A stretch of 42,529 bases of DNA from assembly GCA_021157525.1 (NCBI GenBank), contig JAGGWK010000055.1, forward strand, positions 1 to 42,529, read 5' to 3'. This document shows positions 24,419-38,750 of the stretch, in pieces. Source of the DNA: Candidatus Cloacimonadota bacterium. GTDB taxonomy: Bacteria > Cloacimonadota > Cloacimonadia > Cloacimonadales > TCS61. A model generated the notes under the pieces. It was not told the origin of the DNA and searched no databases. It saw only the letters and a program-made list of their open reading frames with translations. The position numbers and the translations under genes were made by a program. Numbering within the stretch: position 1 is the stretch's first letter; every line of letters starts with the position of its first letter.

Positions 24419-24991
24419 CTATTTTTTGAATTTGTACACTTGATTACAGGTGACATCGTCCAGCCAATAATCTTCCTTTCCGGCTGGAATTGTGATTATT
24501 ACACGTCCAAACATCGCATTGGGCTTGAGAAAGCCGGCGGTTACCGAAACCTCTTTCCACTGTGTGTCTGGCACAAATTTCTCTGTGAATTTGTTAATTT
24601 TCTTCCCTGCACTGTTAAATCCCCAAAACCGAACTGTCACCGGTGCGTTGCCGGTGCCGTCTGTGCGAACAAACGCCCGCAGCAGATAGACATCATGGGT
24701 AGAGACCAAAAAGGCATCAGAAACGATATCCACCGGCTTATCTGGATGCAGGATATGCAGGCACCGAGGCTGATCGTGGCCATCAGTCTGTTGCCACTGC
24801 ACCACACCTTCCGGCTGATCGTACACATACCAATGAGGTGGCAATGCTGTTTTTTGAGGAATTCCCACTTCAAAGGAACCGTTGAAAACCAGATCAGGGT
24901 TTCCAACAGTATCTTCCACGCTGTATCTGGGCACAGTATTAAAACTGCAACCAAGTACCAAAAGAGCTAATAATTCGCCTACTCGTTTCAT
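24419..24991 (-). CDS. Predicted lipoprotein with galactose-binding-like (CBM-type) domain
   Basis: A 190-residue protein starting MKRVGELLALLVLGCSFN: a signal peptide with lipobox LVLGC, so lipidation at Cys15 is expected. The mature part has the start of a jelly-roll carbohydrate-binding-like domain (NPDLVFNGSFEVG, then HILHPDKPVDIVSD, and the terminal YWLDDVTC) of the kind used to bind sugars or cell-wall material. I chose 24991 because it begins the signal peptide and lies 4 nt after the rodA stop; an upstream in-frame ATG at 25018 would overlap rodA. It may anchor to or sense the envelope in the shape operon; this is inference. Confidence 0.78.
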   Translation of the reverse strand: MKRVGELLALLVLGCSFNTVPRYSVEDTVGNPDLVFNGSFEVGIPQKTALPPHWYVYDQPEGVVQWQQTDGHDQPRCLHILHPDKPVDIVSDAFLVSTHDVYLLRAFVRTDGTGNAPVTVRFWGFNSAGKKINKFTEKFVPDTQWKEVSVTAGFLKPNAMFGRVIITIPAGKEDYWLDDVTCNQVYKFKK

Positions 24992-24995
24992 CTTT

Positions 24996-26204
24996 CTACC
25001 CAAAAATACTTCGTTCATTGATGAGCTTCAACACGAATCCAACCGCCATCACGTTGATCAGCAGATTTGATCCACCATAACTGATAAAGGGGAGCGGAAT
25101 CCCTGTAGTAGGAACTACACCCAGATTCATACCCACATTTACAAAGATCTGAAAGGCCAGGTACGTCACAATTCCAATGGAAGCAAAATAGGTTTCATTC
25201 CTTTTTAACTTCCTGATGCTTCGAACAAGGCTAAACAGAAACAAAAAAAACAACGTCAAAACAATTAGGCAACCAAAAAAGCCAAATTCTTCACCAATTA
25301 CAGAAAAAATAAAATCCGTGTGGTGTTCTGGCAGGAATTTGAGGTTCTTTTGAGTGCCCATCAAAAACCCTTTTCCCCAAAGTCCACCCGACCCGATGGC
25401 GATCTTCGATTGAATGATTTGATACCCCGCACCAAAGGGATCTCGCATGGGATCGATGAAGGTAAGTATCCGATTTTGTTGATATTCCTTGAGACCGTGC
25501 CAGATCACCGGCGATATCAGCGCCACAAAAGTATTGAATACACCGATAAACATCATGGTCACCCAGCCGAGACGCTGGTTGTATAAATACCATAATAACA
25601 GCGCCAGCAACACCAAAAAGATGGGGAGGGAAAATGAGGCCACAATGCTGATGAGAGGGCTGAGGAAAATCACGATATAAAACTTAGGTAAGGGCCCTGC
25701 CATCAGAATTGCAAACAGGCTTACGAACAGGGTGAGTGATGTCCCCAGATCTGGCTCAATAAGAATGAGTAACGCCGGAATCGTGACCACCAGCAGAGAA
25801 CTGTAGATCATCTGCCAGTCACTTTGATGCGGTCGGGACAACAACTTTGCCGTTAGAAGGATGGTTACCAGTTTCGCCAGCTCAGAAGGCTGGAAATTGG
25901 CAAATCCCATCCCGATCCAGCGGTGAGAGCCTTTGATCTGCGGCAAAAACAGCACTAACACCAGCATCAGCACCGTCAGCACGTAGCCGGGAACGATGAG
26001 TACATCCAGAACTTGCCGGGGAATGCGCACAATGATATACAGCATGATGAGAGAAATAAATATCCAGAAAATCTGCCGTATATAAAAATTCTCGGTAGTG
26101 ATTTCATCGCCAATTTTGGTAGTGGATGCCGTGTAGATAGAAAATACACCCACCAACAAAAGGATGATCAGCAGCACCAGAGCGCTCCAGTTGAAATTTT
26201 TCAT
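24996..26204 (-). CDS. rodA: Rod-shape protein RodA (SEDS peptidoglycan polymerase)
   Basis: A 402-residue membrane protein with ten or so transmembrane helices. It is the SEDS glycosyltransferase that polymerises lipid II in the elongation complex. Characteristic segments include KGSHRWIGMGFANFQPSELAKL, LIEPDLGTSL, the GAGYQIIQSKIAIGSGGLWGKGF loop with LPEHHTDFIFSVIGEE, and TGIPLPFISYGGSN. Its start overlaps the PBP2 stop by four bases (ATGA), so it is made together with its cognate transpeptidase. Confidence 0.97.
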   Translation of the reverse strand: MKNFNWSALVLLIILLLVGVFSIYTASTTKIGDEITTENFYIRQIFWIFISLIMLYIIVRIPRQVLDVLIVPGYVLTVLMLVLVLFLPQIKGSHRWIGMGFANFQPSELAKLVTILLTAKLLSRPHQSDWQMIYSSLLVVTIPALLILIEPDLGTSLTLFVSLFAILMAGPLPKFYIVIFLSPLISIVASFSLPIFLVLLALLLWYLYNQRLGWVTMMFIGVFNTFVALISPVIWHGLKEYQQNRILTFIDPMRDPFGAGYQIIQSKIAIGSGGLWGKGFLMGTQKNLKFLPEHHTDFIFSVIGEEFGFFGCLIVLTLFFLFLFSLVRSIRKLKRNETYFASIGIVTYLAFQIFVNVGMNLGVVPTTGIPLPFISYGGSNLLINVMAVGFVLKLINERSIFG

Positions 26205-27967
26205 TTTCCCGCCTTCGGATGTTTCAGATCATTGTAGAAAGTGACGATTTCCCGGGCAATCGGTGCAGCCACCCTGCCACCTCCGCCACCATTTTCCAAA
26301 AACACGGTGAATGAGATTTCCGGTTCTTCCCAGGATGCATACCCGCTGAACCACGCATGAGATTCTTCCCCCATATGATTTTCTGCCGAGCCGGTTTTAC
26401 CATAGACGTCCACTCCGGGAACCTTGGCTGCACCGCCGGTGCCATGTAATCCATTCACGGTTTTGTACAGTGCATCCTGAATAAGCTCCAGGTTTTGTCG
26501 ATGCAACGGTAAATCTTTGAATTCCGGCTGATACAGTTTTACCTGATCTTTGGTGATGGTTTTTTGCAACAGGTGCGGCCGTATCCACACACCATCATGG
26601 GCTAAAGCATTGAAATAAGCACACATCTGCAGAGGCGTTACCAGAAGCTCTCCCTGGCCGATTGACATGTTTATCTTTAATCCCAGAATGCTCACATGCT
26701 TTCCATAATTATCCCGATACCATTGGTGAGTAGGGTAAAAACCCTTCCGCTCCCCAATGAGATCAACTCCGGTGGGAAGGGTGACGAAATTGGCTTTGGT
26801 AAAGTCCCGCATCTGATCCAGGGTAAAATTGGTGGATAGGTCATAGAAAAAAACATCGCAGGAATATTTCAGGGCATCGGTTACATTTAAAAAGCCATGA
26901 CCCCGGTGATTCCAGCATTTGAAAAATCGGTTTCCCACCTGCAACCCTCCTACACACTCGGCCAGCTTGGTCTGAGAATCGATCACCTGCATCTCCAGTC
27001 CAAGGGTAGCGGTAATCGGTTTGAAGATGGATCCGGGAGGATAGGTACCATGGATAATCCGGTCCAGCATGGGTTTGTTTTCATCCTGCATCAGACTATT
27101 CCAATCTTCCACACTGATGCCGGTAACAAACATGTTGGGATCAAAATCCGGTTTACTCACATAGGCCAGGATGCCTCCAGTCTGCGCATCCATCACCACT
27201 ACTGCGCCGTTGAGGTTTTTGGGGAAAATCTCTTCAACATATTGTTGTAACCTGTTATCTATGGTGAGGATAAGGTTAGCTCCGTGGGCAGGCTCCTTGC
27301 GCAAATTGTAGTGGAGGAATTTCAGATTTTTCCCTTTGGCATCCACCTGCAAAAGTTCGTAGCCAGGGGTTCCGCTCAACGCTGTTTCATAGAATTTTTC
27401 CAGTCCGGTTTTCCCTATATGGCTGTTTATTGTGTAGTGGGAATTATCATTGTTTTTCAGTTCTTCTGGGTTAATTTTGCCCACGTATCCGGAAAAATGG
27501 TTGGGATACCGATAGTTGCGAATGGTTTCATTGCGGAAGGAAAGGGATGGGAAATAATTGAGTTTTTCAGCCACTCTCACCCGTTTTTCGTAAGAGATGT
27601 TTTCTACCAGCAACACGTCATGATACAGTCTGTACCGATTGTTTATGATGATACGGCTCACCTCTTCCAGAGGTACATCAAATTCCTTACTCACAAAATC
27701 CGCCACTCGCTCTTTATCCTTTATCAGTCCGGGGCGAAGATAGAGATTAAAGGAGGGAACATTGAGCACAATGGGTCGATAATTGCAGTCAAAAATCTCA
27801 CCCCGCACCGAGGGAATGGTTTTGATCCGCACGAAATTTTGTTGGGAAACGACTTGATAAAAAGAGCCTTTGACTATCTGTAAACGCACCAGAGCCAGGA
27901 GCAATATGAGGAAAAGCAGCGTTATTGCTACCGTTAAAATGGTGCTGAAAGTAGAGCGTTTAAACAT
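26201..27967 (-). CDS. mrdA: Penicillin-binding protein 2 (MrdA), elongasome transpeptidase
   Basis: A 588-residue class B PBP that crosslinks lateral-wall peptidoglycan. It has an N-terminal transmembrane anchor (about 8-30), the pedestal domain with RGEIFDCNYRPI, and the transpeptidase domain with SxxK in PPGSIFKP near residue 315, an SxN-equivalent SCD in KYSCDVFF, and KTG in YGKTGSAEN near residue 527. Its start overlaps the mreD end by 8 bases, and its own end overlaps rodA. Together these form the RodA-PBP2 pair. Confidence 0.97.
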   Translation of the reverse strand: MFKRSTFSTILTVAITLLFLILLLALVRLQIVKGSFYQVVSQQNFVRIKTIPSVRGEIFDCNYRPIVLNVPSFNLYLRPGLIKDKERVADFVSKEFDVPLEEVSRIIINNRYRLYHDVLLVENISYEKRVRVAEKLNYFPSLSFRNETIRNYRYPNHFSGYVGKINPEELKNNDNSHYTINSHIGKTGLEKFYETALSGTPGYELLQVDAKGKNLKFLHYNLRKEPAHGANLILTIDNRLQQYVEEIFPKNLNGAVVVMDAQTGGILAYVSKPDFDPNMFVTGISVEDWNSLMQDENKPMLDRIIHGTYPPGSIFKPITATLGLEMQVIDSQTKLAECVGGLQVGNRFFKCWNHRGHGFLNVTDALKYSCDVFFYDLSTNFTLDQMRDFTKANFVTLPTGVDLIGERKGFYPTHQWYRDNYGKHVSILGLKINMSIGQGELLVTPLQMCAYFNALAHDGVWIRPHLLQKTITKDQVKLYQPEFKDLPLHRQNLELIQDALYKTVNGLHGTGGAAKVPGVDVYGKTGSAENHMGEESHAWFSGYASWEEPEISFTVFLENGGGGGRVAAPIAREIVTFYNDLKHPKAGK

Positions 27968-28445
27968 CTATGGAAAGCCGAAGCTTGTCGATAACCAGTA
28001 GCAGATAGACGCCGATAATGGTTATGCATGAATTGTATAAAACCGCAAAGAGAGCGGGGGTAACCAGCTCTTTCCAATGAGACGAAGCTAACAGAAAATA
28101 GAGTATCATCAAAAGATAGTAAAGGCCATTGAGCATGATAAGGCTCAGCGCCACGATGGCGAATTTGTGTTTGTTTATGCTCCGATGCACCAACTGCACC
28201 AAGAGGGCTATCAGCAAAAATGAAAATGTGTGCCAGCCCATCTGCAGTGGCGTGGTAAGATCGTAGGCGATGCCCAAAAAAAAGATGATAGAATATGCAG
28301 CAGAAGGGGCTGTGCTGATGATAAGATAGACCACAAAGGGCAAAAGCAGCTCCGGCATAACCCGCCACAAAGTGAGAGATGGCGCAATGAGAACCTGCAC
28401 ATAGAGGGCTACAATAGCCCATATCGCCATCTTCACCGTGCGCAT
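27960..28445 (-). CDS. mreD: Rod-shape-determining protein MreD
   Basis: A 161-residue membrane protein with about five hydrophobic helices, matching the short, poorly conserved MreD family of the elongasome. Identification rests on size, topology and position between mreC and PBP2. I chose ATG 28445, which overlaps the stop of the preceding CofE-like gene (TGATG); a GTG at 28466 would add seven residues. Confidence 0.85.
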   Translation of the reverse strand: MRTVKMAIWAIVALYVQVLIAPSLTLWRVMPELLLPFVVYLIISTAPSAAYSIIFFLGIAYDLTTPLQMGWHTFSFLLIALLVQLVHRSINKHKFAIVALSLIMLNGLYYLLMILYFLLASSHWKELVTPALFAVLYNSCITIIGVYLLLVIDKLRLSIDV

Positions 28446-29107
28446 CACACTTCTCGCAAGATGCACAAAGGGGTGAGCTCAGCACCTTGTCCCTGAGGAT
28501 TGTCTTTCATGGCAGCCTCCAGCAGCGCTGCATCAATTCCCCTGCTACCACCGATCATCCAGCTGCCACCGATATCGTTGATATCCATCACCGCCACCTC
28601 ATGGCCCAGGGCATCGGCTATCCGTTGCGCCTCTTTTCCCGGATGCAGAGGCCCTTTTATCACGCAGGATTCATAGGGCGGCACCGGTGATGTGCTGGCG
28701 GCATCCACCAGAGCGGCCTGCATCCCGGCTACCCGATAAAAATCGCCCTTACGCCCCACCAATTTACCCAGAGCGCCAGCGGCAGCAGCGAGCAAAATGC
28801 GGCATGAACCAACTTCATCGATAGCACATTGCATGCTGGTAGGAGCCCGAAGTCCAATCCCGTATTTTACATTGGCAACAAAGCGCCACAGGATCGAGGC
28901 CAGAAAACCTACTTTGATCTGGCTCACCGGAATGGCTCGTCCCTGGGTGATTGCCAGGGGGCTTTCGCTGACAGTAACAATATCACCGGGGAGCAGATGG
29001 GGTGTGCAAAAGGTTTTGGCAATTTCTGCCATATCGTCATCAGGGGTGAGGATGGAAGTCTTCACCGGGATGCGTAGATAGGTTTTTCCCTGAACGTTAA
29101 TCGTCAT
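28445..29107 (-). CDS. CofE-like protein (F420-0:gamma-glutamyl ligase family)
   Basis: A 220-residue protein resembling the CofE family (amide ligases that add L-glutamate to coenzyme F420-0 with GTP). The match is seen in the N-terminal YLRIPVKTSILTPDDD, the segment LPGDIVTVSESPLAITQGRAIP, and the nucleotide-binding GLRAPTSMQCAIDEVG and AAAAGALGKLVGRKGDFY. The C-terminal part has DINDIGGSW. No other F420 gene is in the window, and it lies between mreC and mreD with 11-nt and 1-nt overlaps, so it is cotranslated with shape proteins. It may join amino acids to an envelope substrate; this is inference. Start 29107 overlaps the end of mreC. Confidence 0.75.
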   Translation of the reverse strand: MTINVQGKTYLRIPVKTSILTPDDDMAEIAKTFCTPHLLPGDIVTVSESPLAITQGRAIPVSQIKVGFLASILWRFVANVKYGIGLRAPTSMQCAIDEVGSCRILLAAAAGALGKLVGRKGDFYRVAGMQAALVDAASTSPVPPYESCVIKGPLHPGKEAQRIADALGHEVAVMDINDIGGSWMIGGSRGIDAALLEAAMKDNPQGQGAELTPLCILREV

Positions 29108-29879
29108 AGGTTTCTGTTTCATAGCTGGTATCCTTATGATAATGCAAGACAATCACCTGGTCGAGCATTGCAGTATTTGCGTGAGGAACTATCGTAGCCT
29201 GGATGTGCAATTCGTCAGATGCATCCCGTAACTGGCTTACAACCCCAACAGGGAAGTTTTTTGGGAAAACGGTAGAAAGTTCGCTGGTAACAATTTCATC
29301 ACCCACATTTATATCGGCGCCCAAACGGAGCAAATTCATGGTTATAGTGCCGTTGATATCACACTCCAGCAATCCCTGAAGATGATTTTTTTTAACCATG
29401 ACAGCCAATTTAAATTTTCGGTGAGACAGGGGCATAACGATGGCGTAGTTGGAGGATGTGGAGATAACTTTCCCCACAATCCCGCTACTGGATATCACGG
29501 GGAAATCAATTTCAACTCCATGCTTTTTGCCACGATTGATGATGAACGAACGATCATCCAGCCCCCCCCGGTAGGATACGATGTCGGCGATGGTAAATTC
29601 ATAACCTTCTCCTACATCTTCCATAGAGAGAGCTTGCTGTTTGTCGTAGCTATTTTGTAATTGTTGTAGTTGAATCGTTTTGACGGACAACTCTTCCCGC
29701 AATTTCCAGTTGTTTGCCTGTATTTCCCCCAGATCCTTTATCAGCTTGAGAGAGCTGATAAAGGGAAGGTAGATAGATTTACTGAGAAACTGAGCTTTGC
29801 GTAACCGCTGTTCAGTACTGCCAAAAAGAAGAATCAAAGCGATAATAATATAGAGTATAAATAAACTTCTATCTCTCAC
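29097..29879 (-). CDS. mreC: Rod-shape-determining protein MreC
   Basis: A 260-residue periplasmic scaffold of the elongasome. It starts with a transmembrane helix (about 6-22), then a coiled coil (about 45-82) and a two-lobed beta domain with VSYRGGLDDRSFIINRGKKHGVE and SSGIVGKVISTSSNYAIVMPL. Start is GTG, 1 nt after the mreB stop. It links MreB inside the cell to PBP2 outside. Confidence 0.95.
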   Translation of the reverse strand: MRDRSLFILYIIIALILLFGSTEQRLRKAQFLSKSIYLPFISSLKLIKDLGEIQANNWKLREELSVKTIQLQQLQNSYDKQQALSMEDVGEGYEFTIADIVSYRGGLDDRSFIINRGKKHGVEIDFPVISSSGIVGKVISTSSNYAIVMPLSHRKFKLAVMVKKNHLQGLLECDINGTITMNLLRLGADINVGDEIVTSELSTVFPKNFPVGVVSQLRDASDELHIQATIVPHANTAMLDQVIVLHYHKDTSYETETYDD

Positions 29880-29880
29880 C

Positions 29881-30918
29881 TTACTCTTCTACTTTGCGTA
29901 ATAAAACTTCCCGGTATTGTTCGATATTGTCCAAAACCAGGCCACAACCTTTTAAAACGCAGGTAAGAGGCTCGGGCATCACATGCACAGGAAGATCCAC
30001 TGTCTCCCTCAATTTACGATCCAATCCCTTCAGTTGAGCTCCGCCTCCAGTCAGGATGATACCACGTTCGGCGATATCTGCTGCCAATTCCGGAGCTGTT
30101 TTTTCAAAGAGCCGCTTCACCGCATCAATCATCTGTATCACAGTTTCATTCAAAGCTTCACGAATTTCTTCGGATGAGACCTCCACCGTGATGGGATAGC
30201 CGGTGATAATGTCACGTCCCCGCACTTCCATCTTCAGCTCATTTTCCAGAGCAAAAGCTGAACCGATGGCCATCTTGATGCGTTCGGCAGTTTGAATACC
30301 GACATAAATATTGTTGCGTTTCCGCAGATAGGTTACAATCGCGCTGTCCATCTTGTCTCCCCCCACACGGATGGAGCTATGGACAACAATATGAGAAAGG
30401 GAGATGATGGCGATTTCGGTGGTTCCGCCGCCGATATCCATCACCAGGTTACCCTGGGGTTTGTGGATGGGTAAGTCGGCACCAAGGGCTGCCGCAATCG
30501 GCTCGGAAATGAGATGAACTTCCCGTGCTCCAGCACTTAATGCGCTGTCTCGCACCGCACGTTTTTCCACTTCGGTAATACCCGAGGGCACACACACCAG
30601 CACCCGTGGCTTGATGAACAATCTTTTTTTCTGGGCGCGGAAAATCAGGTTACGCAACATCATTTCCGTTACATGAAAATCGGCTATTACACCGTCTTGC
30701 AATGGTTTGATGGTACGAACCTCTTCCGGATTTTTACCCAGCATATCTTTGGCGTCTGCGCCAATGGCAATAATCTTTTTGGTTTCCCGGGATATGGCAA
30801 CAACCGAAGGCTCATCGATGACAATGCCAATACCCTTTCTATATACTAATGTGTTTGCGGTTCCCAAATCTATCGCAATATCATTAGAAAACATCCCAAA
30901 CATCTCATTTAGAAACAT
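29881..30918 (-). CDS. mreB: Rod-shape-determining protein MreB (actin-like)
   Basis: A 345-residue bacterial actin homologue that positions the wall-synthesis machinery. Phosphate-binding loop DLGTANTLVY near residue 17, VCVPSGITEVEKRAVRDSA, the second phosphate loop MDIGGGTTEIAIISL near residue 163, and adenosine-motif GIILTGGGAQLKGL near residue 290. First gene of the cell-shape operon; length and all ATPase motifs are intact. Confidence 0.98.
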   Translation of the reverse strand: MFLNEMFGMFSNDIAIDLGTANTLVYRKGIGIVIDEPSVVAISRETKKIIAIGADAKDMLGKNPEEVRTIKPLQDGVIADFHVTEMMLRNLIFRAQKKRLFIKPRVLVCVPSGITEVEKRAVRDSALSAGAREVHLISEPIAAALGADLPIHKPQGNLVMDIGGGTTEIAIISLSHIVVHSSIRVGGDKMDSAIVTYLRKRNNIYVGIQTAERIKMAIGSAFALENELKMEVRGRDIITGYPITVEVSSEEIREALNETVIQMIDAVKRLFEKTAPELAADIAERGIILTGGGAQLKGLDRKLRETVDLPVHVMPEPLTCVLKGCGLVLDNIEQYREVLLRKVEE

Positions 30919-38381: not shown

Positions 38382-38750
38382 ATGTATAAATTGAATGTGA
38401 CATCGCAGTTTTCTGCTGCCCATCAACTGAAGGGCTATGAGGGAGCTTGCAAGAACCTGCATGGACATAATTGGAAAGTACGGGTAGGCATCCTGTGCGA
38501 AAAAACCGATGATATCGGCATGACAATCGATTTTGGCATCGTGAAGGAAATCATGGAAAATATCCTGGCAAAGCTGGATCATTCCCTGTTGAACGACCAT
38601 GACTGTTTTGCCGAAGAAAATCCCACTTCCGAAAACATCGCTCAATACCTGTATGTCCAGTTTAAAAGCCGTCTGACAGAGCAAAATTGCCAGGTCGCCG
38701 ATGTGGAAGTGTGGGAATCTGATCGTTCATCAATGGTCTATTTTGAATAA
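38382..38750 (+). CDS. queD: 6-carboxy-5,6,7,8-tetrahydropterin synthase
   Basis: A 122-residue QueD/PTPS-I family enzyme converting 7,8-dihydroneopterin triphosphate to 6-carboxytetrahydropterin in queuosine (7-deazaguanine) synthesis. Zinc ligands H14 (SAAHQL), H27 and H29 (LHGHNW) and catalytic C23 (CKNLHGH) are seen. GAGGAG lies 5 nt before the ATG. It is first in a plus-strand group; engB begins on the last base of its stop (TAATG). A short hairpin (GGTTCA/TGAACC, about 38340-38357) precedes it but does not fit a preQ1 riboswitch. Confidence 0.95.
   Translation: MYKLNVTSQFSAAHQLKGYEGACKNLHGHNWKVRVGILCEKTDDIGMTIDFGIVKEIMENILAKLDHSLLNDHDCFAEENPTSENIAQYLYVQFKSRLTEQNCQVADVEVWESDRSSMVYFE

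Follow-up and report, generated by a model that had tools for sequence, protein, structure and literature searches.

What might a protein resembling F420-0:gamma-glutamyl ligase (CofE) do in the middle of a rod-shape operon? The question is raised by a contig of a Candidatus Cloacimonadota bacterium, analysed here over a stretch of 42,529 nt (the window), where a gene of this kind lies between mreC and mreD. The preliminary description of the locus had proposed a repurposed amide ligase that works either on an envelope or peptidoglycan-linked substrate, or on a cofactor needed in step with growth. We followed the gene through related and distant genomes, compared the predicted structure of its product with that of CofE and weighed the roles that the protein may fulfil.

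Gene organization of the locus

The CofE-like ORF, originally delimited as 28445-29107 on the minus strand within an mreBCD-PBP2-rodA operon, is indeed present, and Pfam matches bear out all of its neighbours: mreB lies upstream, followed by the mreC-CofEL-mreD module and, downstream, by the PBP2 gene and rodA (Table 1). The encoded protein, termed here CofEL, is the sole match to PF01996 (F420_ligase) in the 2.23-Mb genome and a marginal one, with 26.5 bits against a gathering cut-off of 25.

Table 1. Coordinates of CofEL and the surrounding mre operon in the window
Feature	Coordinates	Strand	Basis or remark
rodA (SEDS glycosyltransferase)	24996..26204	-	PF01098, 306.5 bits
PBP2 (class B penicillin-binding protein)	26201..27967	-	PF00905 and PF03717
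mreD	27960..28445	-	PF04093, 35.8 bits; ATG 28445
CofEL, CofE-like (PF01996) protein, 225 aa	28445..29122	-	Pfam; predicted start ATG 29122
mreC, overlapping the CofEL start	29097..29879	-	PF04085, 120.8 bits
Putative Shine-Dalgarno-like AAGGAT	29130..29135	-	7 nt before ATG 29122, within the end of mreC
mreB	29881..30918	-	PF06723, 461.6 bits

We consider ATG 29122 a more likely start of CofEL than position 29107, because it is preceded by the Shine-Dalgarno-like motif and gives an N-terminus matching that of the relatives, in which extra residues before the RIPxKT motif are usual. With this start CofEL and mreC overlap by 26 nt, while the 11 nt reported earlier apply only to the start at 29107 and a product of 220 aa, as mreC ends at 29097. 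The overlap with mreD stands at 1 nt, between its ATG and the stop codon of CofEL, GTG 28466 being an alternative mreD start. Downstream of rodA, the window encodes a lipoprotein-like ORF of 199 aa (24419-25018) with no Pfam match; an ORF of this type, of about 200 aa, is also found 3' of rodA in some relatives (L113, L115, L116, and L118).

Conservation in Cloacimonadota

We searched 99 genomes, i.e., the genome of origin and its relatives in the order, which place the window's group in Cloacimonadota, and found CofEL to be encoded in 80 of them, with 51–76% identity in the relatives. The linkage with mre genes is conserved through the phylum, as the mreC-CofEL-mreD/PBP2 order is intact in 62 out of 67 named Cloacimonadota contigs. 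Of the other five, one is consistent with this order at the contig edge, three carry CofEL elsewhere (L086, L092, and L100) and one (L087) retains only the downstream half. The median identity of CofEL amounts to 66% vs. 40% for mreC and 32% for mreD. Its presence in most genomes, the persistent gene order and conservation surpassing that of mreC and mreD argue that CofEL is not a chance ORF.

The association with the operon is not obligatory. In six loci (L112 and L114–L118) mreC and mreD occur without CofEL between them, and several Cloacimonadota have an mreBCD-PBP2-rodA operon that does not include CofEL. In three genomes (G062, G065, and G083) CofEL and mreB are found on separate contigs, in agreement with the relocated loci. 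Intact mreC-mreD pairs lacking CofEL led us to reject the idea that it is strictly required for mreBCD. The Rod system can do without CofEL, which is not a core part of the elongasome, since some members of the phylum keep the mre operon without it and at least three carry it elsewhere.

Two genomes of one family (f7: G045 and G053, 91 and 82% complete, respectively) yielded neither an MreB orthologue nor CofEL, and have possibly lost the whole Rod operon; as both genes belong to one operon, their joint absence was not taken as evidence. A second MreB, 53% identical and interrupted by a single in-frame TAA or TAG, is encoded in two related genomes (G031:C130 and G039:C104). Two loci labelled Armatimonadetes and Desulfuromonas (L034 and L108) are of the Cloacimonadota and WOR-3 type, respectively, and their labels or bins look wrong.

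Gene context in other phyla

Members of the CofEL family were detected in 57 of 147 genomes of the phylum to which the WOR-3 genome G103 belongs. In a sample of 20 loci from this phylum, the gene of the lipid II flippase MurJ is positioned no more than two genes away from CofEL in ten, and a class A PBP (PBP1A) gene adjoins it in two. MurJ is likewise the neighbour of CofEL in WOR-3 loci L103–L106, L109, and L110 of our first scan (L109 and L270 of the 20-locus sample are one and the same stretch) and in Phycisphaerae locus L102. The arrangements in these two groups vary and include divergent genes, MurJ-ScpB-CofEL on the same strand, CofEL followed by MurJ, and CofEL opposite the PBP gene. 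In four loci (L273, L274, L107, and L108) CofEL lies directly 3' of scpB, a gene of chromosome condensation.

In Bacillota (the phylum of G108), 167 of 398 genomes encode the family. We examined 90 neighbourhoods, taken mostly from the better-scoring matches. CofEL is fused to an Amidase_3 domain in seven of the 90, a share that does not represent a random estimate, as some fusions were chosen for their length, and an Amidase_3 protein is encoded within two ORFs in 23. SpoVB-like flippases (TIGR02900, 349–372 bits, slightly below the cut-off of 372.3) are encoded within two ORFs in 11 loci, which include all seven fusions. Altogether, 34 of the 90 loci show at least one of these wall-related features (fusion, Amidase_3 or SpoVB-like neighbour) and 56 show none. 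Amidase matches are enriched near CofEL (26/345) vs. farther positions in the same loci (5/543), with an odds ratio of 8.8 in a test that ignores shared ancestry.

The amidase motifs DPGHGG (DAGHGG in one case), EK, SxH, and VE are present in all seven fusions. The model of a fusion protein (pLDDT 73.5) comprises an AMIN-like domain, an amidase and a CofE fold; it matches E. coli AmiC (4BIN) with an E-value of 5e-19 over 347 columns, and its C-terminal part matches A. fulgidus CofE (2PHN) with 7e-7. The fusion thus resembles AmiC/CwlD-type amidases in its AMIN-like and Amidase_3 part, but differs from them by the C-terminal CofE-like domain and by having no visible signal peptide. As the AMIN-like domain of the model has its first strand starting at residue 3, leaving no room for a signal peptide, the fusion is probably cytoplasmic. 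In one Clostridia group (L165, L166, L173, and L174) the amidase-like neighbour of CofEL is degenerate and has lost all four motifs. Another Bacillota protein (L159:5145-6545, 466 aa) carries the CofEL domain behind TPR repeats and forms a long branch in the tree.

In a FastTree phylogeny, rooted only at the midpoint, the sequences of Cloacimonadota, WOR-3, Sumerlaeota, and Phycisphaerae group in one clade (support of 96), located beside a clade with nearly all of the amidase-linked Bacillota proteins. Since the arrangements differ between lineages (divergent, convergent, same-strand, and fused), one inherited gene order does not account for the wall linkages.

Predicted fold and conserved residues

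The AF2 model of CofEL, built from 45 natural sequences, reached a mean pLDDT of 90.7. A Foldseek search with this model retrieved structures of A. fulgidus CofE with E-values between 2e-9 and 3e-7 and no other structure below 0.001, while in VIA-align it superimposes on 2PHN with a Z-score of 16.4 (181 residues aligned, 18% identity), the next unrelated protein scoring 5.3. Judging from the model, CofEL has the CofE fold. Sequence searches of the PDB with either the CofEL protein or the 45-member profile gave only weak matches to cytidine deaminases, which we regard as due to chance.

For residue-level comparison, a profile of 135 CofEL-family members was aligned with 11 CofE/FbiB sequences: A. 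fulgidus CofE and ten CofE or FbiB proteins from plasmid records, several of which are encoded beside cofC, cofD or npdG. The match is of high probability (97, E-value 1e-10). D135 of CofEL falls on CofE D109 and D178 on D150, which we take to be the metal ligands of A. fulgidus CofE, and the C-terminal GQ...P...R loop is kept. The partner of D150 is not certain and could be either D175 or D178, as the profile alignment contains a gap between the two; an earlier and weak alignment to a single CofE sequence (probability 13) paired it with D175. D135 and D178 are invariant in 83 proteins, and neither the metal-binding aspartates nor the GQ...P...R loop vary among Cloacimonadota and close relatives. 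In turn, CofE Ser40, Ser44, Lys45, and Glu47 correspond to Glu48, Ala52, Ile53, and Gln55 in the profile alignment. The handling of nucleotide by CofEL may thus differ, given that Lys45 and Glu47 are replaced by Ile and Gln.

The F420 side diverges further. The F420 contacts of CofE comprise a domain-swapped hairpin and Arg234, the latter stacked on the ring of the cofactor (PMC10861534). The CofEL family is shorter by about 28 residues between CofE positions 159 and 207, and we infer from the alignment that what it lacks there is the hairpin that contacts F420. The family ends at CofE position 221, and is therefore devoid of Arg234. As regards the substrate residues of CofE raised in the preliminary description, those for metal and a part of the nucleotide side are kept, while the segments aligned with the F420-binding parts are gone. 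Overall, CofEL is like A. fulgidus CofE (2PHN, 7ULD) in its predicted fold, the pair of metal aspartates and, in part, the N- and C-terminal nucleotide-side loops, and differs from it in low identity, substitutions, the missing parts, its wall-gene neighbours and a genome without CofD or CofH.

Putative role in peptidoglycan metabolism

Among the substrates put forward initially, the MurJ, SpoVB, PBP1A, and amidase neighbours favour peptidoglycan over a free cofactor. In our view, CofEL represents an undescribed relative of CofE, with a probable role in peptidoglycan metabolism suggested by its sequence and gene context. Our searches of the open-access literature for CofE in connection with mreC/mreD and for F420 ligases in connection with peptidoglycan amidases returned nothing on this family. 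The gene neighbours give CofEL a new role that can be tested, and the fusion with an amidase points to a candidate chemistry. Our preferred reading, that the protein is specifically a repurposed CofE-fold amide ligase, cytoplasmic, dependent on nucleotide and metal and recruited to peptidoglycan metabolism, appears to us about evenly balanced between true and false.

CofE transfers glutamate onto a lactyl carboxylate via an acyl phosphate, with formation of an amide, while N-acetylmuramoyl-L-alanine amidase cleaves the lactyl-alanine amide of MurNAc. By analogy, CofEL would most likely activate a carboxylate of a peptidoglycan precursor or a recycled muropeptide as acyl phosphate, and would then couple this group to an amino acid or peptide. 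In keeping with such a role, CofEL genes lie next to the Rod machinery in Cloacimonadota, next to those of lipid II flippases in the WOR-3 and Phycisphaerae loci, and next to, or fused with, an amidase gene in Bacillota. Since CofE makes a lactyl amide and the amidase cuts that of MurNAc, amidase and CofEL may together exchange or put back the substituent of the MurNAc lactyl carboxylate in recycling or precursor editing, which is clearly the weaker guess; the presence of both activities in one polypeptide beside a lipid flippase suggests that muropeptides or precursors are recycled or edited. A bolder proposal, which we hold to be unlikely, is that CofEL founds a new class of amide ligases for peptidoglycan, without kinship to the Mur ligases, which, together with the cytoplasmic amidase in Bacillota, would rebuild or exchange the MurNAc lactyl amide, or add a stem amino acid, before export of the precursor by the flippase, and which would constitute an undescribed route of wall modification or recycling in Cloacimonadota. 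If the peptidoglycan reading is right, wall biology would gain a non-Mur amide ligase, and in a phylum that is largely uncultured the chemistry of the wall would become open to direct tests.

Amide ligation through an acyl phosphate, as proposed here for wall precursors or recycled peptides, is also the chemistry of Mur ligases and Mpl, whose fold is unrelated. We rejected the possibility that CofEL stands in for a missing Mur ligase: MurC (527 bits), MurD (405 bits), a MurE-MurF fusion, MurG, and MraY are all encoded in the genome, and hence no Mur step is missing. MurE and MurF form one ORF of 927 aa in the dcw cluster (L258:10226-13009, contig C71; NF008896, 806 bits). A likeness by description can be drawn with QimC of Streptococcus pyogenes, also an F420-0:gamma-glutamyl-ligase-like protein encoded in a cell-wall modification operon (PMC13059722), although that operon is teichoic-acid-like, while CofEL accompanies Rod or MurJ genes.

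Alternative roles

The main rival is glutamylation of dihydropteroate or folates by CofEL as a FolC2-type ligase, the linkage with wall genes being incidental. There is precedent for it among COG1478 proteins, which can substitute for FolC: CT611 of Chlamydia, a CofE homologue found, like CofEL, without F420 genes, complements an E. coli folC mutant (PMC1971073), and folC2 of L. reuteri appears to be needed for a folate product (PMC5061717). Folate genes are also located within five ORFs of CofEL in 9/90 Bacillota loci; pabABC adjoins it in L162 and fhs in L161 and L171. Such a role thus retains some plausibility through this precedent and the minority of Bacillota copies near folate genes. 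Yet, by description, CT611 makes up for the absence of FolC and is encoded among folate genes, whereas the genome of CofEL already encodes a canonical FolC (TIGR01499, 367 bits; cut-off 162.65) and its clade has no adjoining folate genes. Outside the Bacillota survey, a folate gene of the tested set was found near CofEL in only one of 100 loci, and wall genes adjoin most. The window itself contains only a PTPS/QueD-like match (38409-38729, tblastn E-value 5e-19), about 10 kb from CofEL. On balance, we find the folate explanation unlikely.

Instead of acting as a ligase, CofEL could also sense nucleotides and adjust the Rod complex and flippases as a regulator or scaffold. The tight overlap with mreC and mreD, which suggests coupled translation, the replacement of CofE Lys45 and Glu47, and neighbours that are mainly membrane machines would all agree with it. 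Nevertheless, the invariant metal aspartates and GQ...P...R loop fit catalysis, and fusion with an amidase that keeps its motifs points the same way, making a purely regulatory function improbable.

We see equally little likelihood in a third explanation, in which CofEL adds glutamate to a different small molecule or a cofactor that the cell supplies in step with growth. CofE-type chemistry does serve more than one molecule (F420 and folate), more than half of the Bacillota copies have no adjoining wall gene, and PgsB and PgsC of poly-gamma-glutamate synthesis are encoded side by side in the same genome, both above cut-offs (L259:1498-3106, own contig C21). Against this stand the amidase fusion and the wall-gene neighbours that recur in separate lineages.

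Finally, a genuine CofE of F420 synthesis with unrecognised pathway partners, to which the PF01996 score barely over cut-off and the modelled CofE fold might still point, is strongly disfavoured and barely credible, given the negative searches for CofD and CofH, the failure of CofE equivalog models to match the window protein and the missing tail that would align with the F420-contacting Arg234. CofD (TIGR01819) has no match in the genome of origin or in 19 relatives, and CofH (TIGR03551) has none in the former and none above cut-off in the latter, in accord with the preliminary description, which had noticed no F420 gene in the window. In ten CofEL-bearing genomes of other phyla both proteins are without a match above cut-off as well, and a role in F420 synthesis was rejected. 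The equivalog models TIGR01916 and NF009809 leave the CofEL of the window unmatched at E-values up to 1, and give its Bacillota relatives 14–21 bits, where the cut-offs are 180.65 and 274. Since Pfam scores CofEL-type proteins as F420-0:glutamate ligases, such annotation would wrongly suggest F420 metabolism. Three of the ten genomes from other phyla gave CofH-like matches of 286–340 bits, perhaps MqnE/MqnC.
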